This document shows positions 30,384 to 50,651 of a DNA stretch of 50,651 bases, one piece after another. Below the pieces are notes generated by a model that was not told the DNA's origin, did not search any database, and saw only the letters and a list, made by a program, of their open reading frames with translations. Source of the stretch: a virus; the IMG/VR virus record IMGVR_UViG_3300048105_000327, positions 1 to 50,651 of that record, one strand, 5' to 3'. Position 1 is the first letter of the stretch. Each line of letters begins with the position of its first letter. The translations under genes and the position numbers were made by a program.

Positions 30384-30405
30384 TTTCCCTTTATGGGAAC
30401 AGGAG

Positions 30406-31746: not shown

Positions 31747-31763
31747 ATCATAAAAAACAATTA

Positions 31764-31803
31764 GGACTAAAGTAACCGGCTACCAACCGGCGAACAGTCA
31801 CAG
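31764..31803 (+). ncRNA. GGACC two-stem element, copy 9
   Basis: Outer GACT/AGTC (GACC/GGTC elsewhere: both sides changed), inner CCGG/CCGG, loop CTACCAA, ending ACAG. The ATG at 31806 follows two nt later. Confidence 0.7.
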
Positions 31804-31805
31804 AC

Positions 31806-32144
31806 ATGGACACTGAAGAAGAAACACGAAAACACCTGCAAGTTAAACTACTAGAACTTGAAACAGAATGGGAAGGCCGTTTGCACATGGATGATTTGCA
31901 TTACATGTACTGGCTCCCATCTTTTGTGGAGAAAGTAGCACAAGAAAGAGGCGGTTATTACGGACTACTTTTTACTTATTGTGATGCAGATGAAGAAAAC
32001 GACCCAGACAATGGGAAATATCGTTGCCTTTATCCCCTACATCCAATACCTCATGGTGGAGTTGCGCTTATTACGCGCAATGTAGAAACCCTTGAACGTG
32101 AAGTTAAGAAGTTTTTGAAACAAATGCGCATTGCGCGTTTTTGA
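31806..32144 (+). CDS. Hypothetical protein, 112 residues
   Basis: The ATG lies 2 nt after the CAG of a GGACC element, with no Shine-Dalgarno. Acidic first half, then a basic helix (ETLEREVKKFLKQMRIARF). No family recognised. Confidence 0.6.
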   Translation: MDTEEETRKHLQVKLLELETEWEGRLHMDDLHYMYWLPSFVEKVAQERGGYYGLLFTYCDADEENDPDNGKYRCLYPLHPIPHGGVALITRNVETLEREVKKFLKQMRIARF

Positions 32145-32170
32145 CCAATCTTACTTGCGGTGTACCATTA

Positions 32171-32205
32171 GGACCCAATACCTGTACCAAGGTTGCGGTC
32201 CATAG
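32171..32205 (+). ncRNA. GGACC two-stem element, copy 10
   Basis: GGACC/GGTCC, inner ACCT/AGGT around GTACCA, ending ATAG. It stands 15 nt before promoter cassette copy 4, as the variant copy 5 stands before cassette copy 2, so it closes the upstream cistron rather than opening a gene. Confidence 0.65.
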
Positions 32206-32220
32206 AAAAGAATGGAGTGA

Positions 32221-32279
32221 TGTAAAGGTATCAATACTTTCACACACGCTACTATAATGGAAGGAGGGGAATACCCTCT
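32221..32279 (+). promoter_or_regulatory. Promoter cassette copy 4
   Basis: TGTAA, palindrome-like GGTATCAATACTT (32227-), ACGCTACTATAATGG (32246-32260), AAGGAGGGGAATACCCTCT hairpin. Heads the 440-nt non-coding stretch before 32723. Confidence 0.6.
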
Positions 32280-32722
32280 GACTAAATGTGCGCGTTTGCG
32301 AGAACTTGCGGAAATTTATTTCCGATAGATGTTCAACCGTAAACGTGCATTTCTTTTTTGTATCAATTTTACAATACCCGCCATACTACGCGCGGTTCAC
32401 CATACCCCTAAGATGTGAAAAAACACTTAGGCAAATGCCCATGCAATATGGGCGAATGCTTGGGGGTTTTGCTGAAGCAAAATACTTTGGGACTGCAAAT
32501 CCCAAATGAAGATTCCGGAACTGAACCGGGGCCTTTGCGTGTAGTTCAACAGGGGCGACTTTGCGTCGCTCTCAAGGGTGTTGTTAAATCAAGATGGAAT
32601 GGAAAGGTGTCGGAACCTGAACTGACCGTCGAAATGATGCGAAACAAAAAGGGTGTCTTCCCAAAACACGAGCCTTAGACATCTCGTGTGTTATTAGGAA
32701 AAGGACGCCCCCAGACACTAAC
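32280..32722 (+). ncRNA. Hairpin-rich region with possible micro-ORF
   Basis: CGGAAATTTATTTCCG-ATAG directly precedes an ATG at 32329 that opens 29 codons (MFNRKRAFLFCINFTIP...), a possible peptide with a hydrophobic middle. Further hairpins: CCTAAG...CTTAGG, GCCCATGCAATATGGGC, TTTGGGACTGCAAATCCCAAA in two halves, GCGACTTTGCGTCGC. A longer 87-codon frame at 32415 is crossed by all of these and is not annotated. Confidence 0.4.
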
Positions 32723-32875
32723 ATGGTAGATTATCATGGAATTATACACCGTGCTCAAGGTCAGACTGATAGGTTTGTCCACAAGCGCGGCGATAATGTC
32801 AAGGGAACATCCACAAATAATTCCCTTAAACGAATGTTAGCGAGGGCCCCTAAGGGGACTAAACTAAACCGTTGA
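32723..32875 (+). CDS. 50-residue basic hypothetical protein
   Basis: ATG GTA GAT..., 51 codons to TGA. Coherent, basic composition (HRAQGQTDRFVHKRGDNV, then KRMLARAPKGTKLNR). No Shine-Dalgarno and no clean hairpin-TAG before it (CACTAAC precedes the ATG), so support is moderate. Could bind RNA or DNA. Confidence 0.4.
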   Translation: MVDYHGIIHRAQGQTDRFVHKRGDNVKGTSTNNSLKRMLARAPKGTKLNR

Positions 32876-32952
32876 CACTCGGGAAGGGTGGCGCTTGTGG
32901 CGCCACCTGACCCTCAGACCCTCGTATGGAGGGAATAAGGAGTTGAAAAAAC

Positions 32953-34794
32953 ATGAAGAAAGGAAAAAATGAAAAGACAACAACCGGACAAGCCGCTGAC
33001 GCGGCAATCCGAACAGCAATGTTTCGGAACGGCGGGGAATTCCCCGCGGATGTCGAAGACAAGACATCCCCTGCGAGCCTACCAACTCGCAAGCAAAACA
33101 AGCAAGAAAAGCCCATGAGCCGGGGTTATACGGTTCCTACACGAGTGCATCAAGACGCGGCTGATACCGTTTCAAAGATGATGCGCTCAAAAAATGTGGA
33201 CCCTCAGCCAAACGCACCTGTGCGTCTTGATGGCAATGATGTGGTCGACGCTTCGGGCAAAGACTACCGTGAGGAAGTCCAAATCAGACCCGAGTCGGTA
33301 CCAAGGCAATCAGCAGGAAAACCAACCCGCTTTGCTAAAAAGAGCCGAGGCGAAAGCCCCGGTTCTTACCGACAAGCAAACAACATGGCCCAATACCATG
33401 TCCGCAAGGGCAACGGTAAGGGCAAGGGCAAAAAGGCTGAACCAAAGCCTGTGCCCGAGTGGAAGAATTGGAAAACCCAATGTCACGCGCACCGTCGCGA
33501 TGGCAAACAATGTGGCAACACGTCCACAAAGGGTTCCAAATTCTGTCACTTGCTTGAACACCAACCTGCGAAGCATGGTGTTCCAGACTACGCAGACGAC
33601 CCTGCGTACTCGACAAACGACGATGAACAAGAAGGCGCAAAAGAGTACACCGGCCCACTGCCGGAAGCACTCCGAAAGCCTTTGCTATGGGTATGGGGTA
33701 ATTTTTACACCCCATTCTCATGGATGGTCGTTTGGGTCTTTGCTACCGCCATGTCCACCAAGGGCGCGGCCGGTAGTGCTATTCTTGCACCGTATCATTT
33801 GATGCGATACTGCACTGATAGCGTTGCTACCAAGTGGCGATGGCGACAAGCCATCGCTATCCTTGCGCAAGCAACAGAACGCGACCAACCCCTGTTGGGT
33901 ACAAACCAAGTACTGCAAGTACTTGGAACACACCGACAGATTCGCAACACCAAAGTCGTTCGCGACCCAAAACTCTTGAAACGCGTGTCCCAAGGACTCG
34001 CAAAGAAAGATGGTGGGAAGTGGAAAGGACGCCACGGTAACACGTGGGCCAAGACTGCGGCAAAATTCTTCGACAACACTGTGGAAACACAGCACGAAGA
34101 CAACCTGACAAAGGCATTTTTGGACCCCAATGGTCCTAACGCTAACTGTCATGGCATTGAGAAATTCGTAAAAGACGACGGAACGGCCAATGTAAAAGCG
34201 GCCCGACAAAAGTTCAAGCGAAGTTTGACTACAATCCAAAACCTTCGGCAAATGAAGGGCGTTTCTGACGCCTTTTATGGGTCGACATATCGATTCTGTT
34301 GTGCAAAACCAGAAACCCTCGACATAAAATTCGACGGCGAAACGGTTAGTACATACACAAGGGCTGAGTTTATCGACGCCTATGTGAAGCAGATGCGCAA
34401 TATGAAAACCGATGTCTTTGACATTTTCTATCTAGTGAACGAGGACGCAACAAGCCTCCGAAGCGGAAAGAAGGTCAACGACCCTGTCATCGTTCAGGTG
34501 GCAGTGTACTCGGTTGAAAAGAACGGGAAGGATACCGGAAAATTGTTCATTGCAGTTGGTCGAAAGGCCAAAGGCAAGGGATATGACGGTCCATTTGAAT
34601 CCCAGTTCATGCGCACTTCAAAGCGCTCACCGTTTGAACACGTGTGGGACGCTGACGACAACCTCGATATTATGGAAGTGGTTGCGCAGGATAATCCCGA
34701 GGCAATGAAGGCTCGGGAAGATACTATGATTGACGCGCTCCGAGAGGGGCAAGTACTGTCATGGGACGATATCCAGCAAATGCTCGCTGCCTGA
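32953..34794 (+). CDS. 613-residue protein with CX9CX10C zinc knuckle and hydrophobic segment
   Basis: Starts behind AAGGAGTTGAAAAAAC. The first ~170 residues are basic, Gly/Lys/Pro-rich and probably disordered. A zinc knuckle at about 177-203 (CHAHRRDGKQC...GSKFCHLLEH) has exactly the Cys spacing of the knuckle in the primase at 48336. Residues about 240-285 hold a hydrophobic region (FYTPFSWMVVWVFATAM). The C-terminal 300 residues are a soluble alpha/beta domain. Its size and isolated position suggest a structural or nucleic-acid-handling role; no family recognised. Confidence 0.65.
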   Translation: MKKGKNEKTTTGQAADAAIRTAMFRNGGEFPADVEDKTSPASLPTRKQNKQEKPMSRGYTVPTRVHQDAADTVSKMMRSKNVDPQPNAPVRLDGNDVVDASGKDYREEVQIRPESVPRQSAGKPTRFAKKSRGESPGSYRQANNMAQYHVRKGNGKGKGKKAEPKPVPEWKNWKTQCHAHRRDGKQCGNTSTKGSKFCHLLEHQPAKHGVPDYADDPAYSTNDDEQEGAKEYTGPLPEALRKPLLWVWGNFYTPFSWMVVWVFATAMSTKGAAGSAILAPYHLMRYCTDSVATKWRWRQAIAILAQATERDQPLLGTNQVLQVLGTHRQIRNTKVVRDPKLLKRVSQGLAKKDGGKWKGRHGNTWAKTAAKFFDNTVETQHEDNLTKAFLDPNGPNANCHGIEKFVKDDGTANVKAARQKFKRSLTTIQNLRQMKGVSDAFYGSTYRFCCAKPETLDIKFDGETVSTYTRAEFIDAYVKQMRNMKTDVFDIFYLVNEDATSLRSGKKVNDPVIVQVAVYSVEKNGKDTGKLFIAVGRKAKGKGYDGPFESQFMRTSKRSPFEHVWDADDNLDIMEVVAQDNPEAMKAREDTMIDALREGQVLSWDDIQQMLAA

Positions 34795-34820
34795 GCCGCG
34801 TCAATACGACGACAACAATA

Positions 34821-34859
34821 GGACCCGAAATGATTTACCAAATCAAAGTAGGTCCATAG
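34821..34859 (+). ncRNA. GGACC two-stem element, copy 11
   Basis: GGACC/GGTCC, TGATT/AATCA, ACCA tip, ending ATAG at 34859. Followed not by a gene but by an oligo-T terminator, which shows that the element belongs to the end of the upstream cistron. Confidence 0.7.
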
Positions 34860-39728: not shown

Positions 39729-39744
39729 GGCCTAACGGCCCTAG
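39729..39744 (+). promoter_or_regulatory. Hairpin-CTAG element
   Basis: GGCC-TAAC-GGCC followed by CTAG, two nt before the ATG at 39747. Type example of the element; the same sequence recurs at 46138. Confidence 0.7.
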
Positions 39745-39746
39745 AA

Positions 39747-40427
39747 ATGAGCATAAAGTGGTCTATGAAAGACTTAGGACGCCTCTTCGGACCTGAAGAA
39801 GTGTTCAGTGCTATGACCGTGTACGACGAATTCAAGAACACGGAGAACTACAAAGACAACCTTAACATCGGACAATTACTTTCGATGAGAGTAAAAGGTA
39901 TGACTGAAGTTCCCGAATCTGGAATGAGAACCCTACACAGTTTATTTGACAAGACGGTTGAAGATTTTTCGGTGTTTGTAAAAGACCCGAGTATATTTGC
40001 TGACCGTGTAAAAACTGGATTCAAGAATCCGGTGGACAACCTATCGAGCGAACCTATGTTTAGGGACGCTGTTCGTATCATCCTATTGTTTACCTTAATG
40101 GAAGACAAGAAAATGATAATGGAAGACGCAAAACAAGAACGCGACCGAATTATTAATCGCGTCATGAGTGTCGTTTCAATGCAACTAGAAAATATTCTAG
40201 GCGGAGTTGCCAAATCATTGATTAGTGCCAAAGAAAATATGGACCTAACAGACCTAGACGTTAAGCGTTTGAGTTTGCGTGTAATTGAAGTCTTTGAAGA
40301 CGGATTAGAAACACAACTAATGATTGATGGTATTCCTATTGAAAATGACTCTGACATTAAAGAGCGTTTATCCAAAGAAGTAGATTCTAACAACACTACT
40401 GATAGAAATAATCCAATGTACGGCTAA
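39747..40427 (+). CDS. Hypothetical protein, 226 residues
   Basis: Start fixed by hairpin-CTAG. Almost entirely helical (SEPMFRDAVRIILLFTLMED, MSVVSMQLENILGGVAKS). Lies directly after the AAA+ ATPase and ends in a hairpin-CTAG plus terminator, so it is the last gene of that transcript. Possibly an ATPase partner; no family recognised. Confidence 0.6.
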   Translation: MSIKWSMKDLGRLFGPEEVFSAMTVYDEFKNTENYKDNLNIGQLLSMRVKGMTEVPESGMRTLHSLFDKTVEDFSVFVKDPSIFADRVKTGFKNPVDNLSSEPMFRDAVRIILLFTLMEDKKMIMEDAKQERDRIINRVMSVVSMQLENILGGVAKSLISAKENMDLTDLDVKRLSLRVIEVFEDGLETQLMIDGIPIENDSDIKERLSKEVDSNNTTDRNNPMYG

Positions 40428-40437
40428 ACGGCCCTAG
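40422..40437 (+). promoter_or_regulatory. Hairpin-CTAG element at a cistron end
   Basis: GGC...GCC with CTAG at 40434-40437, overlapping the last codons of the previous gene. A terminator, not a gene, follows. Confidence 0.55.
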
Positions 40438-40438
40438 A

Positions 40439-40490
40439 ATTTTCCCCAACTTAACTCCGTCGTAACGAAGTTGGGTTGGGAAATTTTTTT
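40439..40490 (+). terminator. Long hairpin plus T7
   Basis: TTTCCCCAAC...AACT and AGTT...GTTGGGAAA pair over most of their length, followed by TTTTTTT. Sits between two hairpin-TAG elements, as at 34864. Confidence 0.75.
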
Positions 40491-40516
40491 GTGCCTTATC
40501 GTATAAGGACACATAG
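40491..40516 (+). promoter_or_regulatory. Hairpin-ATAG element
   Basis: GTGCCTTAT/ATAAGGACAC stem (one C-A mismatch), then ATAG touching the ATG at 40517. Confidence 0.65.
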
Positions 40517-40837
40517 ATGACAATTGATTTATCAAAAGTCGTGCGCCTGTCGTTTGAGAAGGAGCGAATCATACAACAAACGATTCCCTCACTGTTACAC
40601 AACGGACAGCACATTAAGCGCCTGCTTAAGGCGCTATTACTTCGGATTGATGCCCTAATTAAGGAAAATCACGGGAAAATCGACGAAGAAATCGCATCAG
40701 AAATTATTATCGCTTCCATGCTGTACATCAGCGAGGAAGCAGGTTTCGATACGACAGAAGAACATCTTAACACCATTGTTGGTAATTTCTTATCCGGGGC
40801 GTTACTCGGATTCAATATCCCTGAGGGATACGAATGA
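40517..40837 (+). CDS. Hypothetical protein, 106 residues
   Basis: First gene after the terminator at 40490; ATG touches ATAG. Helical protein (HIKRLLKALLLRIDALIKEN, IASEIIIASMLYIS). No family recognised. The next gene starts at an ATGA overlap. Confidence 0.6.
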   Translation: MTIDLSKVVRLSFEKERIIQQTIPSLLHNGQHIKRLLKALLLRIDALIKENHGKIDEEIASEIIIASMLYISEEAGFDTTEEHLNTIVGNFLSGALLGFNIPEGYE

Positions 40838-41058
40838 GTAACCGAAGCCTGATTGGAAAAAGATTGAGGCAAGGCCGAAAAGACGGCCTCACACCTCACC
40901 AACGATTCAAGCGTGAAAGTAAAGAAACGGAGCGAAAGGAAAAGAAGCGAGAGCGACTTGGACCTAAGCAACCGGATAAAGACATGGAACGCAAAATATT
41001 GGAAGTACAAGAACAATTTTCTGATAATGAGGAAGAACCTCTTAGTGGACACGATTAG
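40834..41058 (+). CDS. Basic, highly charged protein
   Basis: 74 residues, ATGA-coupled. Very rich in Arg/Lys/Glu (RQGRKDGLTPHQRFKRES, KETERKEKKRERLGPK), probably disordered or a single charged helix. Likely nucleic-acid-associated. The hairpin and start of the next gene lie in its last codons. Confidence 0.55.
   Translation: MSNRSLIGKRLRQGRKDGLTPHQRFKRESKETERKEKKRERLGPKQPDKDMERKILEVQEQFSDNEEEPLSGHD
41029..41045 (+). promoter_or_regulatory. Hairpin-TTAG overlapping a GTG start
   Basis: GAGG-AAGAA-CCTC then TTAG whose G is the first base of GTG at 41045. The same overlap occurs at 50019 and 50170. Confidence 0.6.
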
Positions 41059-41407
41059 ACGTGAAGACCTCACCGCTGAGTCTGCCGGTATCAACCCTGA
41101 AGGCCAAGAATTGGCTTACGAACAGGGCGACCTGCTAGACGAATATGTCGGTGAACACAGTATGAAGATGCTAACATCCGTAATGGATATTATCGTTGAA
41201 GACGCCCTCAAGCGAGGTATCTCCCAGAAAGGCATCCTTGCCTTTTTCCAATGGAACATCAATACGATGTGGAGATACGTTGACTTGCATGACCATCAAT
41301 CCCGTGGTGAAGTAACCATGGAACCTGTTGGTTTGTCTGGAAACAACGTTACAGTATCTTATCATTGTGGGACCGCCGAGTGCGACCCACCAAAAGAGGA
41401 GGAATAA
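41045..41407 (+). CDS. Hypothetical protein, 120 residues
   Basis: GTG start fixed by the overlapping TTAG; in-frame codons upstream lie inside the basic-protein gene. Helical N-terminal two thirds (SMKMLTSVMDIIVEDALKRG), then a beta C-terminus with HCGTAEC. No family recognised. Confidence 0.6.
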   Translation: MDTIRREDLTAESAGINPEGQELAYEQGDLLDEYVGEHSMKMLTSVMDIIVEDALKRGISQKGILAFFQWNINTMWRYVDLHDHQSRGEVTMEPVGLSGNNVTVSYHCGTAECDPPKEEE

Positions 41408-41416
41408 CCTCCCTAG
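41398..41416 (+). promoter_or_regulatory. Hairpin-CTAG element
   Basis: GGAGG-AATAA-CCTCC then CTAG touching the ATG at 41417. The first strand of the stem contains GGAGG, but it is 14 nt from the ATG and paired. Confidence 0.65.
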
Positions 41417-41593
41417 ATGACCGAGCAAGAAGAAACTCTTGAACGTATCGCGACCTCAACTGAAGGGGTCGAACTCGCACTAAACGAAATTAGTATTGCG
41501 CTTAACAAACTACTAGATTTTATCTCGGTAGTATCCTTTGAGGACTTAGAAGCGCAAGTTGATGAAAAAAGCGAAGAAATAAAGCGTGTTTAA
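41417..41593 (+). CDS. 58-residue acidic hypothetical protein
   Basis: Short gene revealed by the hairpin-CTAG that touches its ATG. Acidic and helical (EETLERIATSTEGVELALNE), heptad-like, possibly a small coiled coil. Its last codons form part of the next hairpin. Confidence 0.6.
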   Translation: MTEQEETLERIATSTEGVELALNEISIALNKLLDFISVVSFEDLEAQVDEKSEEIKRV

Positions 41594-41602
41594 TGCGCCT
41601 AG
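41584..41602 (+). promoter_or_regulatory. Hairpin-CTAG element
   Basis: GCGT/ATGC stem with a G-T pair, CTAG at 41599-41602, one nt before the ATG at 41604. The previous gene's TAA is in the loop. Confidence 0.55.
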
Positions 41603-41603
41603 A

Positions 41604-42956
41604 ATGAAAAACTGGTTGAAAAACAGTTCTTCCCAAATGAGGGAAGTAATTCAAAGTGGATGCGCCGAACAGATGCCAATTATGTTGTCTGTCCCGCTTC
41701 CATATTCATTTATCGAGAAAGCCCTAACATACACCGCTGGTGTATTTGACAAGAGGAAAAGGAAAAGACGATACAGATACGGCAACAACACCGCGATGTA
41801 TCGTATTTCTGCTACTTGCGATGGAACCACTCTCTATATGTCGTTCACCTGTCTTGGAACAGGCTTGACGGCAAACATCTATTCTCCTGTTGAAAACGGG
41901 TACCCATTCAATATAATTGTACCTAAAGTACATTTGAATGTCCGTACTGATTCAGGTAGACCATGGAATTGGAACAAAGAATCCGATGAAGGATTTGTAC
42001 TCGTTGCCAGCAACGAGTTGTTCGCAATTCTATGTAATGGATGGAGTAGTTCAGTATCGCCAGATGACTTGTTTAAGGATTCTCACGCTGCGCCGCAGCG
42101 TAACATGGTAACCGGATGTAATATCGGAATCGGATTATGGGTCTATGAAGGCCTCCGACCGTTTGTATCTGCAAAAGCCAAGGGAAATGAAGAAGATTTT
42201 ATTGAATACAGACGTTCGACAACGAACAATAAAAATACAACCGTACATTATGGCGTGGAAAATCCTATCATTGATATGATTGAACCATCAGCCATGGTCG
42301 GTGTAAAACCCGAGCATGGGCGTTGGTTGCTTAACAAAGCAGCAAAAACAACGTCTAAGCAAAAAGGGGAATTGCTAATTCACTTTCGCGAAGGAACTCC
42401 TATGTTCTTTGGCGTAAGTCCAATGGGTACTGAGCCGTCCCTTCCGTATGATGCATACGGGAAGGGTGGTAAAAGAGGAAAGTACCGCACATATTCGTAT
42501 ACTGGAAAAGAACACCTCGTGTCTATACCGAGGGACAGTATCGGAACCAAGGATATCTCAAGCCTAGTCCAAAACTCTGAACAGATGTTTTTCGGCGCTA
42601 GCGATAAGAAGGTAATCCTTGGATGGAAAGTAGACGACGTCTACTTCCTTTGGGAACATGACGTACAACGCACGGATGTATTACATCCAATGCTTGCCGA
42701 TTTGAGTACTACTGCAACAGTAGTGCCTCTCCACTGCGAGAATTTGCGGCTACCAAACGTACGAGATGATTTCAAACTACCATCCTTTTTACAAGGATAC
42801 GAAAATATTGAAGAGGAAGAAGAAATGACACCCGAAGAAGCAAAAATTTTGATTCGCTGGTGGAACGACCACGTCAATGCCGAAATTATGGCAGGCCGTC
42901 GTCCCACTCAAGAATCTGTTGAACTATTTGAAATAATAAAAAACCGTGCCGAATAA
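41604..42956 (+). CDS. Hypothetical protein, 450 residues
   Basis: Start fixed by CTAG; a GTG six codons upstream lies in the hairpin. Beta-rich, repeated strand patterns (YRISATCDGTTLYMSFTCLG, FVLVASNELFAILCNGWSS) that faintly recall sliding-clamp-like folds, though I cannot establish this. The C-terminus is acidic (ENIEEEEEMTPEEAKILIRW). One of the longest unknown proteins here; could also be structural. Confidence 0.55.
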   Translation: MKNWLKNSSSQMREVIQSGCAEQMPIMLSVPLPYSFIEKALTYTAGVFDKRKRKRRYRYGNNTAMYRISATCDGTTLYMSFTCLGTGLTANIYSPVENGYPFNIIVPKVHLNVRTDSGRPWNWNKESDEGFVLVASNELFAILCNGWSSSVSPDDLFKDSHAAPQRNMVTGCNIGIGLWVYEGLRPFVSAKAKGNEEDFIEYRRSTTNNKNTTVHYGVENPIIDMIEPSAMVGVKPEHGRWLLNKAAKTTSKQKGELLIHFREGTPMFFGVSPMGTEPSLPYDAYGKGGKRGKYRTYSYTGKEHLVSIPRDSIGTKDISSLVQNSEQMFFGASDKKVILGWKVDDVYFLWEHDVQRTDVLHPMLADLSTTATVVPLHCENLRLPNVRDDFKLPSFLQGYENIEEEEEMTPEEAKILIRWWNDHVNAEIMAGRRPTQESVELFEIIKNRAE

Positions 42957-42966
42957 TGGCACCTAG
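42946..42966 (+). promoter_or_regulatory. Hairpin-CTAG element
   Basis: GTGCC-GAATAAT-GGCAC then CTAG, one nt before the ATG at 42968. The preceding gene's stop TAA is in the loop. Confidence 0.7.
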
Positions 42967-42967
42967 A

Positions 42968-43336
42968 ATGCTAGGAAATGGAGTAATCAAACGATGGATT
43001 AAATTCATCGAGAAGAATCCAAATCTTACTGTTGACAACTACACTGAAGCAAAAGGAATAGTTTATCGTGGAATCGAGGTTTTACCTTGGTCTACACGAA
43101 GCCGTTCCTTAATTGGTGCTTCTATACGTACTAGACAATGTTACTATTGGACCCTTAGAGGCGATAGTATTGTTGATTGTGATACTACTGAAGACGATGT
43201 TAGAGTCGTACTTATGTATGTTCAAATCGAACTAAGTAAACACGTACTGAAAAATCCAGATGACAGTGTTGTTAATACGAAACAGATTTCGGAAATAATC
43301 CAAGCAATAACTCGACTTAATTGGGTGAACCTATGA
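42968..43336 (+). CDS. Hypothetical protein, 122 residues
   Basis: Start fixed by CTAG; the in-frame ATG at 42956 is the loop/stem of the hairpin. Mixed alpha/beta (GVIKRWIKFIEKNPNLTVDN). The next gene's ATG overlaps its stop (ATGA). No family recognised. Confidence 0.6.
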   Translation: MLGNGVIKRWIKFIEKNPNLTVDNYTEAKGIVYRGIEVLPWSTRSRSLIGASIRTRQCYYWTLRGDSIVDCDTTEDDVRVVLMYVQIELSKHVLKNPDDSVVNTKQISEIIQAITRLNWVNL

Positions 43337-43971
43337 AGAACAGAATAGAAGCGGCTTTTACTGGCGATGACATTGTCATCCCTAAGCCGTTATTCGGCTT
43401 CGCTATGGATGGTTCACACGAGAAAACCAATACCCAACTTAGGCAGATGATTCGTAATGACCGTCGTTTAGACAGTCCTTTACAGAACTTTGATTCTAGC
43501 CTACAAAACGCTTTACGGGAACATTGTAATGTTACCGGCAAAGACTACAACCTAATGCTCAAGAAAGCAATGGATGGATACCAATTTTTATGCAACGAAA
43601 ATGGTGAATTGAATCTCATCATTGAACGTATAGAAAGTGGCCATCAAGACATTGCGGCTTGGGACGCTAAATGGGTTGGACCACCGCCTTTGGTGGTGTC
43701 TGGTAAAAATCTTAACCATACGATACCGGTTACCCCGGCTAGAATTTGTCTAGTCGCTAACCCGGACCAGTATGATATTGATATCAGAGAAGCGTTTGAA
43801 ACAGTAATTGGACTCCCATGGGAGGATGTAGCGTATGCGAACCCTTTCTACATTGTCGCTAGAACTATTAGCGAAGATGGGGACAGAAGTGTACACTACC
43901 CAGTGTCGATACTAAACGATGTTATGGCAGTGGCTTTGAACTTGAAGCCACTACATAATTCGTGGGAATGA
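43333..43971 (+). CDS. Hypothetical protein, 212 residues
   Basis: ATGA-coupled to the previous gene, one of the two starts in this part without a hairpin-TAG. Soluble alpha/beta protein (FGFAMDGSHEKTNTQLRQMI, ICLVANPDQYDIDIREAFET). No family recognised. Confidence 0.6.
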   Translation: MKNRIEAAFTGDDIVIPKPLFGFAMDGSHEKTNTQLRQMIRNDRRLDSPLQNFDSSLQNALREHCNVTGKDYNLMLKKAMDGYQFLCNENGELNLIIERIESGHQDIAAWDAKWVGPPPLVVSGKNLNHTIPVTPARICLVANPDQYDIDIREAFETVIGLPWEDVAYANPFYIVARTISEDGDRSVHYPVSILNDVMAVALNLKPLHNSWE

Positions 43972-43980
43972 TTCCCTTAG
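43964..43980 (+). promoter_or_regulatory. Hairpin-TTAG element
   Basis: GGGAAT-G-ATTCCC then TTAG, three nt before the ATG at 43984. Confidence 0.65.
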
Positions 43981-43983
43981 ACC

Positions 43984-44307
43984 ATGTCAGAAAATGATAC
44001 TGTCAGCGAAACGAAGCGAAAGCGCGCACCTTCTGTGCGTGCAAAAGACTTCATTCGTATATACAACTCATCGAAATCTTTCGATGAGGTCGTCGAGAAG
44101 ACAGGACTAGCACGCCATACCGTAATGCAACGAGCGAGTGAATACCGCCGTAAGCATGGGATTAATATGCGTAAGTTCCCTCAATCCGCTACTGAACGTA
44201 ACGATTGGAAGGAACTTGCTGAGTATGCGAATTCTGTATTGACCGAAGTAGGGTATGAATCCCCTTCTCCAGTCGAGTCTGAAGATGACACGGAGTCAGG
44301 TGACTGA
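43984..44307 (+). CDS. Helix-turn-helix protein
   Basis: 107 residues. A basic start (KRKRAPSVRAKDFIRIYN) precedes a helix-turn-helix (SFDEVVEKTGLARHTVMQRA, then SEYRRKHG) of the kind in short regulators and terminase-small-like proteins. The C-terminus is acidic. Directly downstream is the palindrome-plus-TATA at 44354, a possible target. Confidence 0.65.
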   Translation: MSENDTVSETKRKRAPSVRAKDFIRIYNSSKSFDEVVEKTGLARHTVMQRASEYRRKHGINMRKFPQSATERNDWKELAEYANSVLTEVGYESPSPVESEDDTESGD

Positions 44308-44314
44308 CCTCCAA

Positions 44315-44347
44315 ATCGGTGTCCTAGATTAATACTAGGCACCCTAG
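44315..44347 (+). ncRNA. Bulged hairpin-CTAG element at a cistron end
   Basis: GGTG-T-CCTAG pairs with CTAGG-CACC around ATTAATA, and CTAG follows. No gene follows; a promoter does, as at the ends marked by copies 10 and 11 of the GGACC element. Confidence 0.55.
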
Positions 44348-44353
44348 ATTAAA

Positions 44354-44381
44354 CCACTAAAGTGGTTTACTATAATATTAG
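44354..44381 (+). promoter_or_regulatory. Palindrome plus TATA (related promoter)
   Basis: CCACTAAAGTGG followed at once by TTTACTATAATATTAG. Same palindrome-then-ACTATAAT order as the four cassettes but with different palindrome. Stands 200 nt before the gene at 44579. Confidence 0.5.
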
Positions 44382-44578
44382 TTCGTTGATTGTGAGTAAG
44401 CAATTCAACGAATAGGCGGGTAGCCTAAAAAGGGTGAACGAGCCCGTGTAGAGGGCCAAGACGAGATAAATCTAAGTTTTGCGAACTCTATACGGGGGAA
44501 TCGGTATATCCCAAAAAACTAGGTATTGATTGAACAATAATTTTATCGTTTAATTTCACGCCTTACTACCCTCAGACA
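44382..44578 (+). ncRNA. Structured leader
   Basis: CCCGTGTAGAG near 44442 pairs with CTCTATACGGGG near 44485, the main feature of a 200-nt leader. CTCAG lies three nt before the ATG at 44579. No gene seen. Confidence 0.4.
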
Positions 44579-44860
44579 ATGTCTTTTATTGGCAATGCAA
44601 AGAAGGCCCTTTCCAAGGGCATTAAACTGACTGGACTTTGGCCGCAAATGAAGCGGGACGAAGCAGGTAACAAGACCGAAGAGGTTTCACATCTCAGCGG
44701 TAAAGTCGGCAAGGACCGCGATGGTAATGACATCGAGGTTACAATCCGAACGGGTGACACCTTCAAGGTGTGGCCTAACAGTTACAAAAACAGTCCTAAT
44801 GCACCGGAATACAACCTTCAATTCTATGCTGACTCTCAACAAGAGTCTAGTAACGAATAA
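44579..44860 (+). CDS. Hypothetical protein, 93 residues
   Basis: ATG three nt after CTCAG. Basic helical N-terminus (GNAKKALSKGIKLTG) and a beta part (NDIEVTIRTGDTFKVWP). First gene of the transcript from the 44354 promoter. No family recognised. Confidence 0.6.
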   Translation: MSFIGNAKKALSKGIKLTGLWPQMKRDEAGNKTEEVSHLSGKVGKDRDGNDIEVTIRTGDTFKVWPNSYKNSPNAPEYNLQFYADSQQESSNE

Positions 44861-44862
44861 CC

Positions 44863-44878
44863 GGGCTCACGCCCCTAG
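44863..44878 (+). promoter_or_regulatory. Hairpin-CTAG element
   Basis: GGGC-TCAC-GCCC then CTAG, two nt before the ATG at 44881. Compared with GGCC/GGCC copies, both stem strands differ. Confidence 0.7.
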
Positions 44879-44880
44879 AA

Positions 44881-46137
44881 ATGTTTAATATTTTTTCAAA
44901 AGAATATGAACTACCAGAAACAGCGAAAAGCGAATTGGGTACTGAAACCCATCCGCTGAATTCGCTTTCTGGACAAAATGTACACAGTTATACAAACGGT
45001 AAACGAACCGATAATGCTGGTGTACAAGATTTTGGAATGTCATGGACTAATGACACTTCACGAGTAAGAATGCATGCACAAGCACGCAGACTAAAAGCCA
45101 GAAATTGTACTACTGAGGTTAAACTCAGTGGGCATAACTTTGGCATACATCGTGGATTACAAGTACTACTAATTAAAAGTACAATGGAAACCCGAGAACA
45201 ATCGCAGTATAACCATAGTGGTGATGCTAGTGTTATTCCCGGAGCGGACTTTAATGGCCCTTTGAGGGCAGATTTTCCCCCTGTTGAACGCTATTATTTG
45301 ATAGCATTTGACCCTGACCTATGTCATATTGTTGAACGTGCAGTTGAACAAGACGGAACGGTACACAATATCTGGCACATTCAAGCCGATACTGAAATCA
45401 AAGCCACGAAATGGGCAATTGATGGGGAAATTGAAGCCTTCTACGATTCTTCGGAGGAAGGCAAAGGACGTTTGTACGGCATGTATGTTTCGCTGACAGG
45501 TATAGATTACCTGCAAGCGGCAAAAATATGCCAAAAATCTGTTGCTCCTCCAACTGAAATAGTGGAGCAGTGGGTCGATTGGGTACTTGACTCTTCGATA
45601 GAAGAGTTAGTAAATACGACTGACCAAAAAGATATCGTAAAGGCGAAGAAATGGATTGCTCCCGTTGTAAAATACAACGAGCAATTCAAGGATGCCGAGG
45701 AAATATATCGTGTTGGCCACCTGCGTTTTGTTAGGTTGGCTGATAGTACTATTGGTGGAAAATCCGATAGTGTACTTGACCATCTCCAATGGTTCGGTGT
45801 AATGCCGATTTTGAATGTTGAAAAATCTGTCCAAATTACATTGGACGGCAATTATTACAAACAACATACCTCCAATGGATGCAATGATGCATGTAACCAT
45901 GAAACGTTAGAACTTACTGAAGGTAAGTACGCAATTGACGTAAACAAAACATGCTTCTACTATGGCAAGAAATACATTTATCCTCACGGCAAGAAAGCAT
46001 GGATTCTATCTATGCTTGCTAACAGCCAAGTCATAATTGAGAAATCTATCGCAGACAGGATTGCTCCTGTTACTTCGATGGACGATATGAGCAATATTGC
46101 TTACAATGACGACGACGAATTTCTAAATCGAATATAA
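44881..46137 (+). CDS. Hypothetical protein, 418 residues
   Basis: Start fixed by CTAG. Soluble, mixed composition. Notable parts are GHNFGIHRGLQVLLIKSTME, RYYLIAFDPDLCHIVERAV and a Cys/His region CNDACNHETLELTEG. No catalytic motif or family recognised. Long genes in this cluster could be virion or replication proteins; undecidable from sequence alone. Confidence 0.55.
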   Translation: MFNIFSKEYELPETAKSELGTETHPLNSLSGQNVHSYTNGKRTDNAGVQDFGMSWTNDTSRVRMHAQARRLKARNCTTEVKLSGHNFGIHRGLQVLLIKSTMETREQSQYNHSGDASVIPGADFNGPLRADFPPVERYYLIAFDPDLCHIVERAVEQDGTVHNIWHIQADTEIKATKWAIDGEIEAFYDSSEEGKGRLYGMYVSLTGIDYLQAAKICQKSVAPPTEIVEQWVDWVLDSSIEELVNTTDQKDIVKAKKWIAPVVKYNEQFKDAEEIYRVGHLRFVRLADSTIGGKSDSVLDHLQWFGVMPILNVEKSVQITLDGNYYKQHTSNGCNDACNHETLELTEGKYAIDVNKTCFYYGKKYIYPHGKKAWILSMLANSQVIIEKSIADRIAPVTSMDDMSNIAYNDDDEFLNRI

Positions 46138-46153
46138 GGCCTAACGGCCCTAG
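46138..46153 (+). promoter_or_regulatory. Hairpin-CTAG element
   Basis: GGCC-TAAC-GGCC then CTAG, one nt before the ATG at 46155. Identical stem-loop to 39729. Confidence 0.7.
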
Positions 46154-46154
46154 T

Positions 46155-46499
46155 ATGCCTAACAGCAACAAAACAGCGAACGACTTCATCATAGAAGTCT
46201 GCCATGAACATCTTTTACCGGAACTAACGGAAACAATCCTTGAGCGACTAGTCAAGGGTGAAAAAGAATATGGACACAAAATTCGCGTAATGGATGATAC
46301 TACAACTTGGGGTACAAAGAACAATAGTTGGCTTGATATGGCTGTGGAAGAAATCGCTGATGCGATTATTTATGTCCTCGCTAATTATCTCCGACTGATT
46401 GAAACTAACCAAGTAAGTCAAGTATCGTACCAAATGACGATGGTTGCCGTTAGGCAACTATCTGAGGTTTACAACATTATGAACCTCATATCGCCGTAA
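46155..46499 (+). CDS. MazG-like helical protein
   Basis: 114 residues. LVKGEKEYGHKIR, then TTTWGTKNNSWLDMAVEEIADA and IIYVLANYLRLIE recall the helix pattern 'KG..EYG...W...A.EEi.DA..Y' of phage MazG-like/all-alpha NTP pyrophosphohydrolases, with the EExxD metal ligands (VEEIADA). The second half is another helical hairpin. If active it would hydrolyse (d)NTPs. Together with the HD hydrolase it would be a second nucleotide-pool enzyme. Confidence 0.5.
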   Translation: MPNSNKTANDFIIEVCHEHLLPELTETILERLVKGEKEYGHKIRVMDDTTTWGTKNNSWLDMAVEEIADAIIYVLANYLRLIETNQVSQVSYQMTMVAVRQLSEVYNIMNLISP

Positions 46500-46511
46500 T
46501 GAACGGCCTAG
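46493..46511 (+). promoter_or_regulatory. Hairpin-CTAG element
   Basis: GCCGT-AATGA-ACGGC then CTAG, two nt before the ATG at 46514. The ATG at 46499 lies in the loop, so it is not the start. Confidence 0.7.
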
Positions 46512-46513
46512 AT

Positions 46514-47887
46514 ATGACAGAAGACGTAATTGATAACGGCTCTTTTATTATTACCAGTGAACACGGCGCAGTACCGGTTTTTGGACATGAAGCCAAGTGG
46601 CGAGTATCGAACAACAAAGTTCCATACGAATCACTAGTGGCCTTTTGCCAAGCGAACCAACTGAACGTTGCACTGGTCCCCCCTCCGCGATGCGGAAACG
46701 ATTCGTTTGCACTTGCTGTACAGATTTTTAATCGTCGTTCAAAGACGACAGTTACACTAAGTGAAGAATCCGAATGGGATGGGAATACTTTCCAAGAAAC
46801 ATGGAGCGTTCGCGCGCTTCTTCGTGGACGTGAGTATGCCCTGATTAGAGAACGACTGGGTAAGAAAGATGGGCGCAAGCACATTGTTCAAACCCCGCTT
46901 TATCGTCTTGAATACGTGCCTTCCGCTGGTCAGTTGACTACGGAAGAATGGAGAACTAACTTCCAACTACGTACTCAAGGTATAACGCAACTTACTGATG
47001 AGAATGGAGTTTCAAGACCGGTTGGACCGGCCGAAGAAGCCTCATTGCGAACTCGTGTAAGAATCGTTCCATACAGTCCCGACATCGGTATTGCCGATGT
47101 GGATGAACACATTGCAATGGTACAAAGACTTCAACAAAAATTTGTTGAGATGTCTACTACCGTTGACGAAGTATTGATGAGGAACAAACTAAAGTCGCTG
47201 ATGGTAAGCCATCGCGCTGTTCCTGATTCTACCGTAAAAGGTGGAATTTATCAGATAGCAAACGAAAAGAAATCCGAAGAATTGAAGGAAGGCGAGATAC
47301 AACCTCACCTTACTACCCTTCGACCATTCGGATTGCTATTGCGATATTGGGGAAACCAAAACAAACCAGACCCTACCGCCGAACAAGCGGTATGGGCTGA
47401 CGACGATGGACGAGTTGATTACCGGCTACGTGGCGACCTACGCCTAGTACCGAGAGTCAAAACAGAAGACCTATTGGATGAAATGACTAACAATGTTGAA
47501 CACCAACTTAACATTGCCTTCGGTGAAATGCACGAGAATATTCGCGAACTACTTCGCGACCTCAAAACCGAAGCGCTAGCACCGACTGAGAAATCCTCAA
47601 AGAGTGCAGAAAAGCAACAGGAACGCTTGCGTAAGCGAGCAGAACAGTTCCGTGATGAAAGTCAGAATCTACACCAAATGGTTGAGAAATTCCAAGAACA
47701 ACTTGGACGAGAACTCAATGTCCGTACCACACCGTACAAAGACCAGCAAGATGAACTTGATTCTAGGCTGGCCGCTATTCGTACGGTTGACGAAGTCACA
47801 GCAGACAGATTCATGTCTATGCTGGGAACAACCAAGGAAGAACCCAAAGCCGGTGGCTTTGATGGACTTGGTAGTTTATTTGGTTAA
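46514..47887 (+). CDS. Coiled-coil-containing hypothetical protein, 457 residues
   Basis: Start fixed by CTAG. The first ~260 residues are globular alpha/beta. Residues about 320-415 are long charged helices (EHQLNIAFGEMHENIRELLR, KQQERLRKRAEQFRDESQNL), a probable coiled coil. A Gly-rich end (GGFDGLGSLFG) resembles flexible interaction tails. No family recognised; possibly structural or scaffold-like. Confidence 0.55.
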   Translation: MTEDVIDNGSFIITSEHGAVPVFGHEAKWRVSNNKVPYESLVAFCQANQLNVALVPPPRCGNDSFALAVQIFNRRSKTTVTLSEESEWDGNTFQETWSVRALLRGREYALIRERLGKKDGRKHIVQTPLYRLEYVPSAGQLTTEEWRTNFQLRTQGITQLTDENGVSRPVGPAEEASLRTRVRIVPYSPDIGIADVDEHIAMVQRLQQKFVEMSTTVDEVLMRNKLKSLMVSHRAVPDSTVKGGIYQIANEKKSEELKEGEIQPHLTTLRPFGLLLRYWGNQNKPDPTAEQAVWADDDGRVDYRLRGDLRLVPRVKTEDLLDEMTNNVEHQLNIAFGEMHENIRELLRDLKTEALAPTEKSSKSAEKQQERLRKRAEQFRDESQNLHQMVEKFQEQLGRELNVRTTPYKDQQDELDSRLAAIRTVDEVTADRFMSMLGTTKEEPKAGGFDGLGSLFG

Positions 47888-47889
47888 TC

Positions 47890-47905
47890 GGGCTAACGCC
47901 CCTAG
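47890..47905 (+). promoter_or_regulatory. Hairpin-CTAG element
   Basis: GGGC-TAAC-GCCC then CTAG, two nt before the ATG at 47908. Confidence 0.7.
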
Positions 47906-47907
47906 AT

Positions 47908-48318
47908 ATGAACACAATTCGAGTACTTAACCTCGACCGTAGAGAATATTTTCTGATACAGAACTACGGACATATTATCGCGTACAATGCCGCAGTGGAA
48001 GCAAAATCAAAAGGGACTAATTGGTCCCTTCGACAGCAAACACAAGGTTATTCACAGCGAATCAAATACAAAGCGCCCATTATGACTTATGGGCAGGTGC
48101 TACTAGTATCTGAAACTTCTATTGATGCCGCTCTACATGACACGCTAACCGAAACTGCGAAAAAAAGCATCGGTACGTGGCACGGCAATAGGATTATCGT
48201 TGATTGGACTAACAATACCAGTATAACTGACGATAATTCTAGAAGGATGAAAGATATTACAGAAACTGTTTTCCAACTAGGGAAAGCATATCTGAAGTAC
48301 GACAAGGTCCTCATATAA
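47908..48318 (+). CDS. Hypothetical protein, 136 residues
   Basis: Start fixed by CTAG. Alpha/beta protein (NTIRVLNLDRREYFLIQNYG, GNRIIVDWTNNTSIT). It directly precedes the primase gene. No family recognised. Confidence 0.6.
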   Translation: MNTIRVLNLDRREYFLIQNYGHIIAYNAAVEAKSKGTNWSLRQQTQGYSQRIKYKAPIMTYGQVLLVSETSIDAALHDTLTETAKKSIGTWHGNRIIVDWTNNTSITDDNSRRMKDITETVFQLGKAYLKYDKVLI

Positions 48319-48329
48319 ACGGACCCTAG
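48306..48329 (+). promoter_or_regulatory. Hairpin-CTAG element
   Basis: GGTCC...GGACC stem with a 10-nt loop containing the previous stop, then CTAG and a six-nt spacer (GAAAAA) to the ATG at 48336, the longest spacer in this cluster. Confidence 0.65.
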
Positions 48330-48335
48330 GAAAAA

Positions 48336-49454
48336 ATGAAGTGGAAAAAACAAAACACAAGATGTTACCACATCAAGAAAGATGGAATTCAATGTAAAAT
48401 GGAAGCACCAAAAGGGGAATACCTGTGTGAACATCACCAGTATGACCTTCGTGCTTACATGAAACACCCAATAGAAACTGCGAAGAAATTCAAGAAATAT
48501 TGGGGCAAGGCGCATCACCCTGCGTGTGACAAGAAAGGGTCGTTAGTATGCGACTGTCCTGATATTCGGGACGGTGCAATTCTAGCGTTAGCGTTGAAGC
48601 GAGGAAATGAAAAGTCGCTTTCAACAACACCTACTAAACGTAGGCTAAACCACTTAGACATGCTATTGAAACTTAGGCGAATCAAAGCCTATTACAATAG
48701 CATCACAGTGGATGACCTATGGCTTCCACCAGAAGCCAAATGGCGCCAATTTCGACTCTTTGTCTATGACCGACGAGCAAAACTCGTACGAGTTCAAAAG
48801 ATTCGGGATACCATCAATACCAAAGAAAAACTATTGAAACACCTGCGAAAGCATACTCCATTGCACGTCTATTATAGTACGAGCAAATGGATGCGGTCGC
48901 AAAGTGTTGGACCAGACCCCCATTCTAAGGGGGGAAGAAGGAAATTTAAGAAACAAGGACGAAACAAATGGCTCGACAATTTATGGTTGGGTCAAGGATT
49001 TTACGTCGATGTTGATTATGAAATGAAAGATACCACGATGGCCGCGGAAATGACCGCTAAAGTCATCGCTTGGTATCGCGAAAATGTTGACAGGTTTTCA
49101 AACCTCACTATTGTAAGTAGTGGTGGTAAAGGATTCCATGTTATTAATTACAATTTTGTACATGAGGTACACCTCAAAGGTGAACTGCTGAAAGGTTGGC
49201 AGGGAGCGTACGACAAAACATATGCGGAAAAAGGAATGACACCGATGGCCATTAGGCAAAACATCAGTCGAAACTTGAAACGTTTATTTGTTGATAAGAT
49301 GAAACGCGATGGGCTATTGGTTGACTATGAAGTCACACCAGACCCAAGGCGAATTATCCGCTTACCCGGTACAATACACGGCAAACACATGACCGTGTGT
49401 AAAATTATTTCAGAAGATGACCTTTTTGACTGGGAAAATCAAGAAATTGCGTGA
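48336..49454 (+). CDS. priS: Archaeo-eukaryotic-type DNA primase
   Basis: 372 residues. N-terminal zinc knuckle CX9CX10C (Cys10, 20, 31, His34) shared with the 613-residue protein at 32953. Primase motifs: FYVDVDYE (Asp225, Asp227; metal site), VSSGGKGFHVI (His268; the S-G-x-G-F-H motif) and PDPRRIIRLPGTIHGKHM (the third Asp, Arg and 'RLPGslH.K'). This is the AEP small-subunit/PrimPol fold, which makes RNA or DNA primers. With PolB and RNase HI it forms the visible replication set. Function is convincing; whether a large subunit exists is unknown. Confidence 0.88.
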   Translation: MKWKKQNTRCYHIKKDGIQCKMEAPKGEYLCEHHQYDLRAYMKHPIETAKKFKKYWGKAHHPACDKKGSLVCDCPDIRDGAILALALKRGNEKSLSTTPTKRRLNHLDMLLKLRRIKAYYNSITVDDLWLPPEAKWRQFRLFVYDRRAKLVRVQKIRDTINTKEKLLKHLRKHTPLHVYYSTSKWMRSQSVGPDPHSKGGRRKFKKQGRNKWLDNLWLGQGFYVDVDYEMKDTTMAAEMTAKVIAWYRENVDRFSNLTIVSSGGKGFHVINYNFVHEVHLKGELLKGWQGAYDKTYAEKGMTPMAIRQNISRNLKRLFVDKMKRDGLLVDYEVTPDPRRIIRLPGTIHGKHMTVCKIISEDDLFDWENQEIA

Positions 49455-49483
49455 CATTTATGACCTACGGGTACGTCACCTAG
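49451..49483 (+). promoter_or_regulatory. Hairpin-CTAG element
   Basis: GTGAC...GTCAC stem with a long loop, then CTAG, three nt before the ATG at 49487. The primase stop TGA is inside the stem. Confidence 0.65.
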
Positions 49484-49486
49484 AAC

Positions 49487-49999
49487 ATGTCTAACAACGA
49501 AATGACAAGTCCAGACGGCGGAAGCCATCTGAGTTACAACCAAATGGTTGCTGCAAATGAGCAATTGATTGAGAAGTACGGCGAAGAATACCGCGACAAG
49601 ATTGGTGGAAAGTATACTCATTCCGATGGAACGCACTGCTATGTCGGTGCGCTCTTTGAAGAATTAGGATACCCTCTTCCAAAAGCGGGCAAAGATTATG
49701 CTAACGGTTCGTCCGTTGGTGGAATCAAGTCTTGGCTGGAAAAAGAACACAATGTTACTATGAATTCAAACTTACAAAAGGCCCTTCAAATGGCTCAAGT
49801 AAAGAATGACCGAAAAGAAACATGGGGTTCAGCGGCTGACGCTTTTATGCAGTCGTACCGCAAGAGCCATGCAGAAGTACAGTTGAGAGCACAAAACGTG
49901 AATAAGATTTCTATGGAATCTAATCCGAGTAATGTTTTCAACGGTTCGACCAACGTGACCAAGGAGAAATCCGTAGGTCAAAAAATTTGGGAAGACTAA
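49487..49999 (+). CDS. Hypothetical protein, 170 residues
   Basis: Start fixed by CTAG. Polar protein rich in Asn/Ser/Lys (YNQMVAANEQLIEKYGEEYR, GTHCYVGALFEELGYPLP); the latter part is probably disordered. No family recognised. Confidence 0.6.
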   Translation: MSNNEMTSPDGGSHLSYNQMVAANEQLIEKYGEEYRDKIGGKYTHSDGTHCYVGALFEELGYPLPKAGKDYANGSSVGGIKSWLEKEHNVTMNSNLQKALQMAQVKNDRKETWGSAADAFMQSYRKSHAEVQLRAQNVNKISMESNPSNVFNGSTNVTKEKSVGQKIWED

Positions 50000-50003
50000 A
50001 ACC

Positions 50004-50019
50004 GGCCTTCGGGCCCTAG
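50004..50019 (+). promoter_or_regulatory. Hairpin-CTAG overlapping a GTG start
   Basis: GGCC-TTCG-GGCC (a UUCG-type stable tetraloop) then CTAG; the final G begins the GTG at 50019. Confidence 0.65.
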
Positions 50020-50153
50020 TGAAACCTAACGAATGTAAGGTTTGCTTCAAGAGTATCGGCAAAGGAAAACTTTGCTTTGAATGCCAACATGAAGCAAGAT
50101 GTAGAACCATGATGAGGAAAAAAGAATATCCTTGGTGGATGAAACATGAATAA
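50019..50153 (+). CDS. 44-residue zinc-finger peptide
   Basis: GTG start whose G is the last base of CTAG. Two Cys pairs in a treble-clef-like order: CKVC (6-9) and CFEC (19-22), then another Cys, with a basic Trp-rich end (RRKKEYPWWMKHE type). Probably a zinc-binding nucleic-acid peptide. Easily missed because of its length and start codon. Confidence 0.6.
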   Translation: MKPNECKVCFKSIGKGKLCFECQHEARCRTMMRKKEYPWWMKHE

Positions 50154-50154
50154 T

Positions 50155-50170
50155 GGCCTTCGGGTCTTAG
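50155..50170 (+). promoter_or_regulatory. Hairpin-TTAG overlapping a GTG start
   Basis: GGCC-TTCG-GGTC (one G-T pair) then TTAG; the final G begins the GTG at 50170. Same plan as the element at 50004, with a neutral stem substitution. Confidence 0.65.
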
Positions 50171-50361
50171 TGGCAAAAAAGACGAAAGTCTGTATTGTGG
50201 ATGGCTGTAAAGGACCAGCCGTTTACAAGCCAATGGTGAAGACTGGTAAGAAGTTCCAAGAACGTATACTTTGCATGAAATGTTGCAAAGAATACTTAGC
50301 GGAGCATAACAGTCTTAGCAACGTCCGCTTATCTTTACGCGGAATCAAGGCCAAATTATGA
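50170..50361 (+). CDS. 63-residue zinc-binding-like protein
   Basis: GTG start fixed by the overlapping TTAG; an in-frame ATG at 50146 overlaps the previous gene and runs through the hairpin. CIVDGC near 8-13 and CMKCC near 36-40 make a probable four-Cys zinc site (treble-clef-like), with basic ends. Function unknown. Confidence 0.55.
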   Translation: MAKKTKVCIVDGCKGPAVYKPMVKTGKKFQERILCMKCCKEYLAEHNSLSNVRLSLRGIKAKL

Positions 50362-50370
50362 TGGCCCTAG
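50349..50370 (+). promoter_or_regulatory. Hairpin-CTAG element
   Basis: GGCC...GGCC with a 10-nt loop carrying the previous stop, then CTAG, one nt before the ATG at 50372. Confidence 0.6.
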
Positions 50371-50371
50371 T

Positions 50372-50651
50372 ATGACAAATGCACAAAACTATAAGCAAAG
50401 GGCTGGAATAGCCCTTGCACTAGAAAAAATTGTTGGACCACTTATCGTTAAAGAAATAGTGGACCATTTGCTCAATGAATGTGAAACGCCCCTACGCGCC
50501 GCTATCTGCGGCGAAGGGATGTGTACATTGAAAGCGAGAAGCCTTGCGAAAGTAATCGACACAGGAGTGACGATGGCTAAAGGTAAATGGAAGCCGGTAC
50601 TATACCAGCAGTACAATGTACAAATACGCGATTGGAGCCTAGACTCGATGA
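50372..50651 (+). CDS. Partial hypothetical protein
   Basis: 93 codons open to the right edge. Begins MTNAQNYKQRAGIALALEKI, a helical start, followed by a Cys-containing stretch (NECETPLRAAICGEGMC) and a basic part. Start fixed by CTAG. The rest lies outside the window. Confidence 0.55.
   Translation, partial: MTNAQNYKQRAGIALALEKIVGPLIVKEIVDHLLNECETPLRAAICGEGMCTLKARSLAKVIDTGVTMAKGKWKPVLYQQYNVQIRDWSLDSM

Follow-up and report, generated by a model that had tools for sequence, protein, structure and literature searches.

In Cas6/Csy4-type cleavage of CRISPR transcripts, a hairpin with its 3' flank is recognized and the RNA is cut at the base of the hairpin. Other structured RNAs delimit messages in viruses and organelles. 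Mimiviridae and Pithovirus follow a 'hairpin rule', in which intergenic hairpins set the 3' ends of transcripts; in Mimivirus, a viral RNase III-like enzyme cuts within the hairpin, and the transcript is polyadenylated (PMC4402537). In mitochondria, tRNAs punctuate polycistrons (PMC3471875), and stem-loops have been proposed for this role where tRNAs are lacking (PMC5474008). In the archaeal halovirus HF2, intergenic repeats contain AT-rich promoter motifs (PMC8707807). Here, we describe a short hairpin with a 3' flank such as CTAG, found before most gene starts in the right arm of a 50,651-nt linear IMG/VR virus record, the whole of which is called the window below.

This element shares features with each of these systems. 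As in Mimiviridae, sequence-variable hairpins lie at gene boundaries of a large double-stranded DNA virus with its own transcription genes, but the stems are mostly of 4–7 bp, a fixed 3' flank adjoins the next start codon, the element is linked to gene starts, and no RNase III was found in the contigs scanned. As in mitochondria, where it has been proposed or shown to direct cleavage into nearly leaderless mRNAs, structured RNA separates the genes; by contrast, neither tRNA genes nor known RNA families are present here, and the hairpins are short with a lineage-specific flank. A Cas6/Csy4-type enzyme would act in a like manner, but the stems are not a fixed repeat. As in HF2, repeated elements lie between archaeal virus genes, but AT-rich promoter motifs are not enriched. 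The Mimivirus and mitochondrial systems are analogues, not relatives; by analogy the element may work as they do, and it shows none of their other testable defining features. An earlier note on this DNA knew of no described system of the kind, a view that the Mimiviridae hairpins (PMC4402537) and mitochondrial stem-loops (PMC5474008) qualify, whereas a literature search, in which subscription journals were scarcely covered, found no description in archaea or archaeal viruses. The element looks like a previously undescribed way to cut or start viral messages. The reading that we favour, at a probability of about one half, is that an endonuclease punctuates long transcripts by cutting where hairpin and flank meet, which would yield near-leaderless mRNAs.

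A hairpin and flank at the gene starts of the right arm

Nineteen gene starts are listed between 39747 and 50372. A hairpin followed by CTAG, TTAG or ATAG, with the start codon 0–6 nt further on, precedes 16 of them, and the GTG starts at 41045, 50019, and 50170 begin with the final G of TAG. A weaker variant, a large weak structure closing GGGGG/CCCUC and then CAG, precedes the start at 44579, and the figure of 17 given earlier holds if this case is counted. The other two starts (40834 and 43333) are without an element and ATGA-coupled, as had been noticed. The elements are as follows:

39729..39744, + strand: hairpin GGCC-UAAC-GGCC and CTAG, before gene 39747 (226 aa); the loop is a UMAC tetraloop, not the upstream stop
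40422..40437, + strand: hairpin GGCT-AAAC-GGCC and CTAG, at the end of gene 39747-40427, then non-coding sequence
40490..40516, + strand: bulged hairpin UGUGCCUUAU-cgu-AUAAGGaCACA and TAG, before gene 40517; by folding, it pairs right up to TAG with one bulge
41029..41045, + strand: hairpin GAGG-aagaa-CCTC and TTAG, GTG start 41045 (120 aa)
41398..41416, + strand: hairpin GGAGG-aauaa-CCUCC and CTAG, before gene 41417
41584..41602, + strand: hairpin GCGU-guuuaau-GCGC and CTAG, before gene 41604
42946..42966, + strand: hairpin GUGCCG-aauaa-UGGCAC and CTAG, before gene 42968
43964..43980, + strand: hairpin GGGAA-uga-UUCCC and TTAG, before gene 43984
44318..44347, + strand: hairpin GGTGtCCTAG..CTAGGcACC and CTAG, downstream of gene 43984-44307, then a non-coding leader
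44493..44578, + strand: weak case, the large GGGGG/CCCUC structure and CAG, before gene 44579 (folding z of only -1.7)
44863..44878, + strand: hairpin GGGC-UCAC-GCCC and CTAG, before gene 44881
46138..46153, + strand: hairpin GGCC-UAAC-GGCC and CTAG, before gene 46155
46493..46511, + strand: hairpin GCCGU-aauga-ACGGC and CTAG, before gene 46514
47890..47905, + strand: hairpin GGGC-UAAC-GCCC and CTAG, before gene 47908
48306..48329, + strand: hairpin GGUCC-10-GGACC and CTAG, before primase-like gene 48336
49451..49483, + strand: two-stem hairpin GUGAC..GUCAC and CTAG, before gene 49487
50004..50019, + strand: hairpin GGCC-UUCG-GGCC and CTAG, GTG start 50019
50155..50170, + strand: hairpin GGCC-UUCG-GGUC and TTAG, GTG start 50170
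50349..50370, + strand: hairpin GGCCA-8-UGGCC and CTAG, before gene 50372

Two of these, the hairpin-NYAG elements at 40422-40437 and 44318-44347, had been overlooked in the earlier note; both stand ahead of non-coding sequence. Directly after the first, a long terminator-like hairpin with a T-run spans 40440-40495. The non-coding leader at 44345-44579, with a GGGGGAATCGGTATATCCCAAAAA core, is shared with L027 (6255-6510), upstream of orthologous genes.

Of the 19 YTAG sites with an open reading frame (ORF) start downstream, 14 directly follow a hairpin of at least 4 bp, vs 9.2% in dinucleotide shuffles (p=2e-11). Of the five sites without a counted hairpin, four are internal ATGs or lie where the window ends; the remaining one, 49480, folds with two stems and a 14-nt multi-part loop. 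The right arm has 1.28 elements per kb and the middle 0.06; none occurs on the same strand of the left arm (0-13.7 kb) or on the opposite strand of the right arm. Shuffles, strand, and arm controls rule out chance or an ORF artefact. The absence of Shine-Dalgarno sequences, also claimed earlier, is confirmed: they precede 20 of 24 left-arm starts vs 0 of 14 scored hairpin starts. No enrichment of a TATA-like box ~25 nt upstream was seen (1/14, 1/25, 1/32, and 0/32 starts, near background), and no conserved box was found upstream of the element. Searches with Rfam 15 covariance models gave no match, even at E<=1 in the 20.5–50.65 kb region; tRNA or tRNA-like genes were not found between cistrons; and sequences complementary to the flank, as a guide RNA would require, are few or none beyond chance.

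Conservation, covariation and RNA-type loops

With its transcription factor B, family B DNA polymerase, and RNA-polymerase large subunit, the window is a member of a little-known family of archaeal-type tailed viruses. Two contigs, G1 (65 kb) and G2 (71 kb), cover its left half at ~78–86% nucleotide identity; they are without a hairpin arm because both contigs stop within the repeat-rich middle region. Distant relatives were reached through alignments of a segment of the RNA-polymerase large subunit (RpoA) and of the primase: G3 (110 kb, analysed as its reverse complement, G3r), G4 (PAND01000026.1, a 101-kb contig, evidently viral, inside a metagenome-assembled genome labelled Flavobacteriales), G5 (L026, 21 kb), and L040 (part of a 140-kb contig). 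Their primases are 36–56% identical, and all four carry the element, whose presence in relatives had been set beforehand as a check. No relatives came from single-protein scans with the AAA, primase, and 418-aa proteins of the window, nor from a search of viral contigs with the hairpin pattern GGCCTAACGGCCCTAG.

In G4r, the closest relative in hairpin comparisons, a hairpin adjoins 27 of the 34 YTAG sites that have a start (p=1e-19 vs shuffles). The flank is TACTAG in G5 (hairpin at 23 of 32 sites, p=2e-6) and CAWTC followed by an invariant GTG start in G3r (21 of 33, p=3e-5), while L040 has a hairpin at 37 of 59 CATAG sites vs a 16% background. In the reverse complement of G003, between 80 and 110 kb, GTG is the start codon of all 32 genes that have the CAWTC flank, and ATG of none. 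The flank is thus lineage-specific (YTAG-N0-7-ATG, TACTAG-ATG, ATAG-ATG with ATAG/ACAG in L040, and CAWTC-GTG), and the TAG flank first proposed stands for the window, whereas CTAG is not family-wide. The spacing from flank to start is -1 to 7 nt in the window and G4r, and constant at 0 nt in G5 and G3r. The reading of NYAG as a 3' splice site was considered and dropped, because G3r is without YAG.

The earlier observation that stems vary while pairing is kept was put to a second check set beforehand and is upheld by covariation within and between viruses. At nine orthologous junctions, the window and G4r both have hairpins, and eight of these junctions keep the layout but have different stem arms. 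In two gap-free subsets, four of five pairs show compensatory changes, and the covariation scores are 1.14 and 0.99 vs 0.24–0.25 in shuffles; in the 1.14 subset, 20 of 45 pair cells are altered on both sides while pairing stays at 100%, and 0 of 500 shuffles scored as high. The pairing percentage is not independent evidence, because members were selected as hairpins; that role falls to the dinucleotide-shuffle test at flank and start sites. A real element conserved across the family is, in our judgement, virtually certain.

Four-base loops in the window and G4r are UUCG, GNRA, or UMAC in 11 of 13 cases vs 5.5% expected (p=9e-13), and in 7 of 9 distinct sequences (p=5e-8). Since these short loops are stable RNA tetraloops, the hairpin appears to act as RNA, and a function at the RNA level is highly probable. 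L040, G5, and G3r do not show this bias, and their loops more often contain the stop. The earlier statement that upstream stops often lie inside the stem-loop applies to 7 of the 13 counted hairpins of the window; in the other 6 the stop falls just before the hairpin. It does so in all six hairpins with a stable tetraloop; holding a stop codon is therefore not what the UAAC loops are for. The RNA-stable loops also weigh against an element formed by single-stranded DNA, such as an attC-like recombination or cassette boundary or a replication or packaging site, which we regard as highly improbable. It would fit intergenic hairpins in one orientation, and the window genes 50019 and 46155, which lie elsewhere in G4r and still have an element with them; however, gene order is otherwise largely collinear between the two, the element is tied to start codons, and the arms have no conserved sequence like the R boxes of attC.

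The transcription genes of the family bear on a further alternative:

9681..10604, + strand: transcription factor B
13748..18619, - strand: RNA-polymerase large subunit (RpoA/Rpb1-like), 1623 aa, fused, common to all large relatives

RpoA is present in the window, G1, G2, G3, G4, and L040, and that of G4 and L040 is the same as the window's. With these genes, the RNA hairpin might terminate the upstream transcript and the flank serve as initiator for a virus-modified RNA polymerase (RpoA, transcription factor B), giving each gene its own leaderless transcript. Lineage-specific flanks adjoining the start codon, an 8-mer (CAWTCGTG) that alone is nearly enough to mark G3r starts, and the promoters in the HF2 intergenic repeats (PMC8707807) all suit such a signal. 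We nevertheless consider it improbable: besides the missing upstream box and TATA enrichment, no U-tract follows the hairpins, the loops are of RNA type, and in the window and G4r the flank has just four bases, so that the hairpin is needed for specificity. A further point against it is that RpoB was not found in the viral contigs searched; for this reason, the viral RpoA is presumably paired with host subunits.

Elements before non-coding RNA and other structured units

Several elements end genes where non-coding sequence comes next (40434 and 44344 in the window; 87218 and 95093 in G4r; 4836, 5941, and 8699 in G5). Such places make sense for a boundary between units but not for a translation-start signal, so these elements favour transcript punctuation. 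In the translational alternative, the ribosome or an RNA-binding protein of the virus would bind the uncut hairpin and flank in place of a Shine-Dalgarno sequence, and the element would initiate or regulate each cistron or support termination-reinitiation over a short gap. This remains a serious though unlikely alternative: elements are present exactly where Shine-Dalgarno sequences are missing, the spacing is constant in G5 and G3r, and stop codons are frequently within the loop. Conversely, the spacing varies in the window and G4r, ATGA-coupled pairs do without the element, and hairpins are retained where the stop precedes them.

A second type of element is found in the middle region:

23165..34859, + strand: two-stem element GGACC..(variable stem, ACCAA loop)..GGUCC-NYAG, 10 copies starting at 23165, 24229, 25200, 25600, 28982, 29465, 30347, 31764, 32171, and 34821

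Its inner stems vary in sequence yet pair, and G2 has two more copies. RNAalifold run on this element (A3) recovered the outer stem alone, because MAFFT misaligned the inner stem. L040 has about 20 structured units of 46–49 nt (GAACC..GAATTRCA..GGTTC-ACAG) between hairpin-ATAG and start codon; they lie at 1772-20786, read more fully GAACC-RAAYCA..GAATTRCA..TGGTTC-ACAG, and are sometimes in tandem. AUAG and ACAG bound the 47-nt units on both sides. In the two-stem elements and the L040 units alike, the G of the preceding NYAG can open the next stem, a hint that the cut may fall near NYA/G.

Other features of the middle region were recorded. The non-coding stretch 21079-21598 is 96.6% identical to G1 64137-64654, with flanking coding DNA at ~86%; it is a conserved, probably structured RNA and has no Rfam match. 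A second, 24227-24551, is 91% identical to G2 and directly follows a GGACC..GGUCC-CAG element. A repeated promoter-like motif, CGCTACTATAATG(G)AAGGAGGGG, lies upstream of middle-region genes (21090-32290). The gene module 30400-31079 corresponds to G1 63342-64015, in a different place in G1 and flanked there by a duplicated promoter segment. Elsewhere, the window encodes a family B DNA polymerase ~23–24% identical to that of tailed haloviruses, a serine recombinase, an AAA ATPase, and the small-subunit primase-like protein. The AlphaFold model of a conserved 457-aa protein gave no PDB fold match and resembled only uncharacterised tailed-virus proteins, and that of a 450-aa protein was too poor for use. 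Neither the primase nor the 457-aa protein is in any named phage record.

Transcript cleavage as the favoured mechanism

Under the cleavage reading, the element would be a cis-acting RNA punctuation signal, made of a short hairpin and a single-stranded 3' flank, within long transcripts that run in one direction through the right (replication/early) arm. An endoribonuclease would recognize both parts and cut at the hairpin or immediately 3' of it. A protective hairpin would then form the 3' end of the upstream message, at its stop codon or directly beyond, and the mRNA or non-coding RNA that follows would begin at or within the flank, giving mRNA leaders of 0–11 nt without a Shine-Dalgarno sequence. 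We infer the cleavage, the cut position, the enzyme, and leaderless translation. The differing flank specificity suggests a virus-specific recognition factor, and a fuller version, in which a co-evolving factor of this kind would cut a polycistron at ~15–35 signals into near-leaderless mRNAs and small RNAs, so that hairpin punctuation would be a general system of mRNA maturation in archaeal viruses, is more tentative, at somewhat less than even odds.

The earlier proposal that the element defines mRNA units fits the RNA tetraloops, the lack of Shine-Dalgarno and TATA sequences, and the elements before non-coding sequence; its suggestion of a Cas6-type enzyme fared less well. No Cas6 was found above the cut-off, the best match (17 bits) having four stops and occurring in one virus. 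Further points weigh against cleavage. No RNase III domain was found in G001, G002, G003, G005, and the G004 viral contig C22 (the scan covered these possibly incomplete contigs and not the window itself), and searches of the viral contigs for Lactamase_B_2 (tRNase Z-like) and tRNA-splicing endonuclease domains gave none. Stems of 4 bp are weak substrates by usual standards. A start signal for translation or transcription would also be consistent with the constant 0-nt spacing in G5 and G3r. In G3r, the signal could lie in the sequence and not in the structure, because flank and GTG are invariant and a hairpin is found in only about two thirds of cases.

Whichever reading applies, a gene-start signal runs along a whole genome arm, its layout conserved and its flank swapped between related viruses. 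Because the flank changes across the family, the recognition factor is directly searchable and testable. If the signal is translational, it would be a new substitute for the Shine-Dalgarno sequence. If it directs processing, an RNase with hairpin/flank specificity is still to be discovered, and these viruses would possess, or have at their command, an mRNA maturation system of their own, analogous to that of giant viruses but outside eukaryotes.

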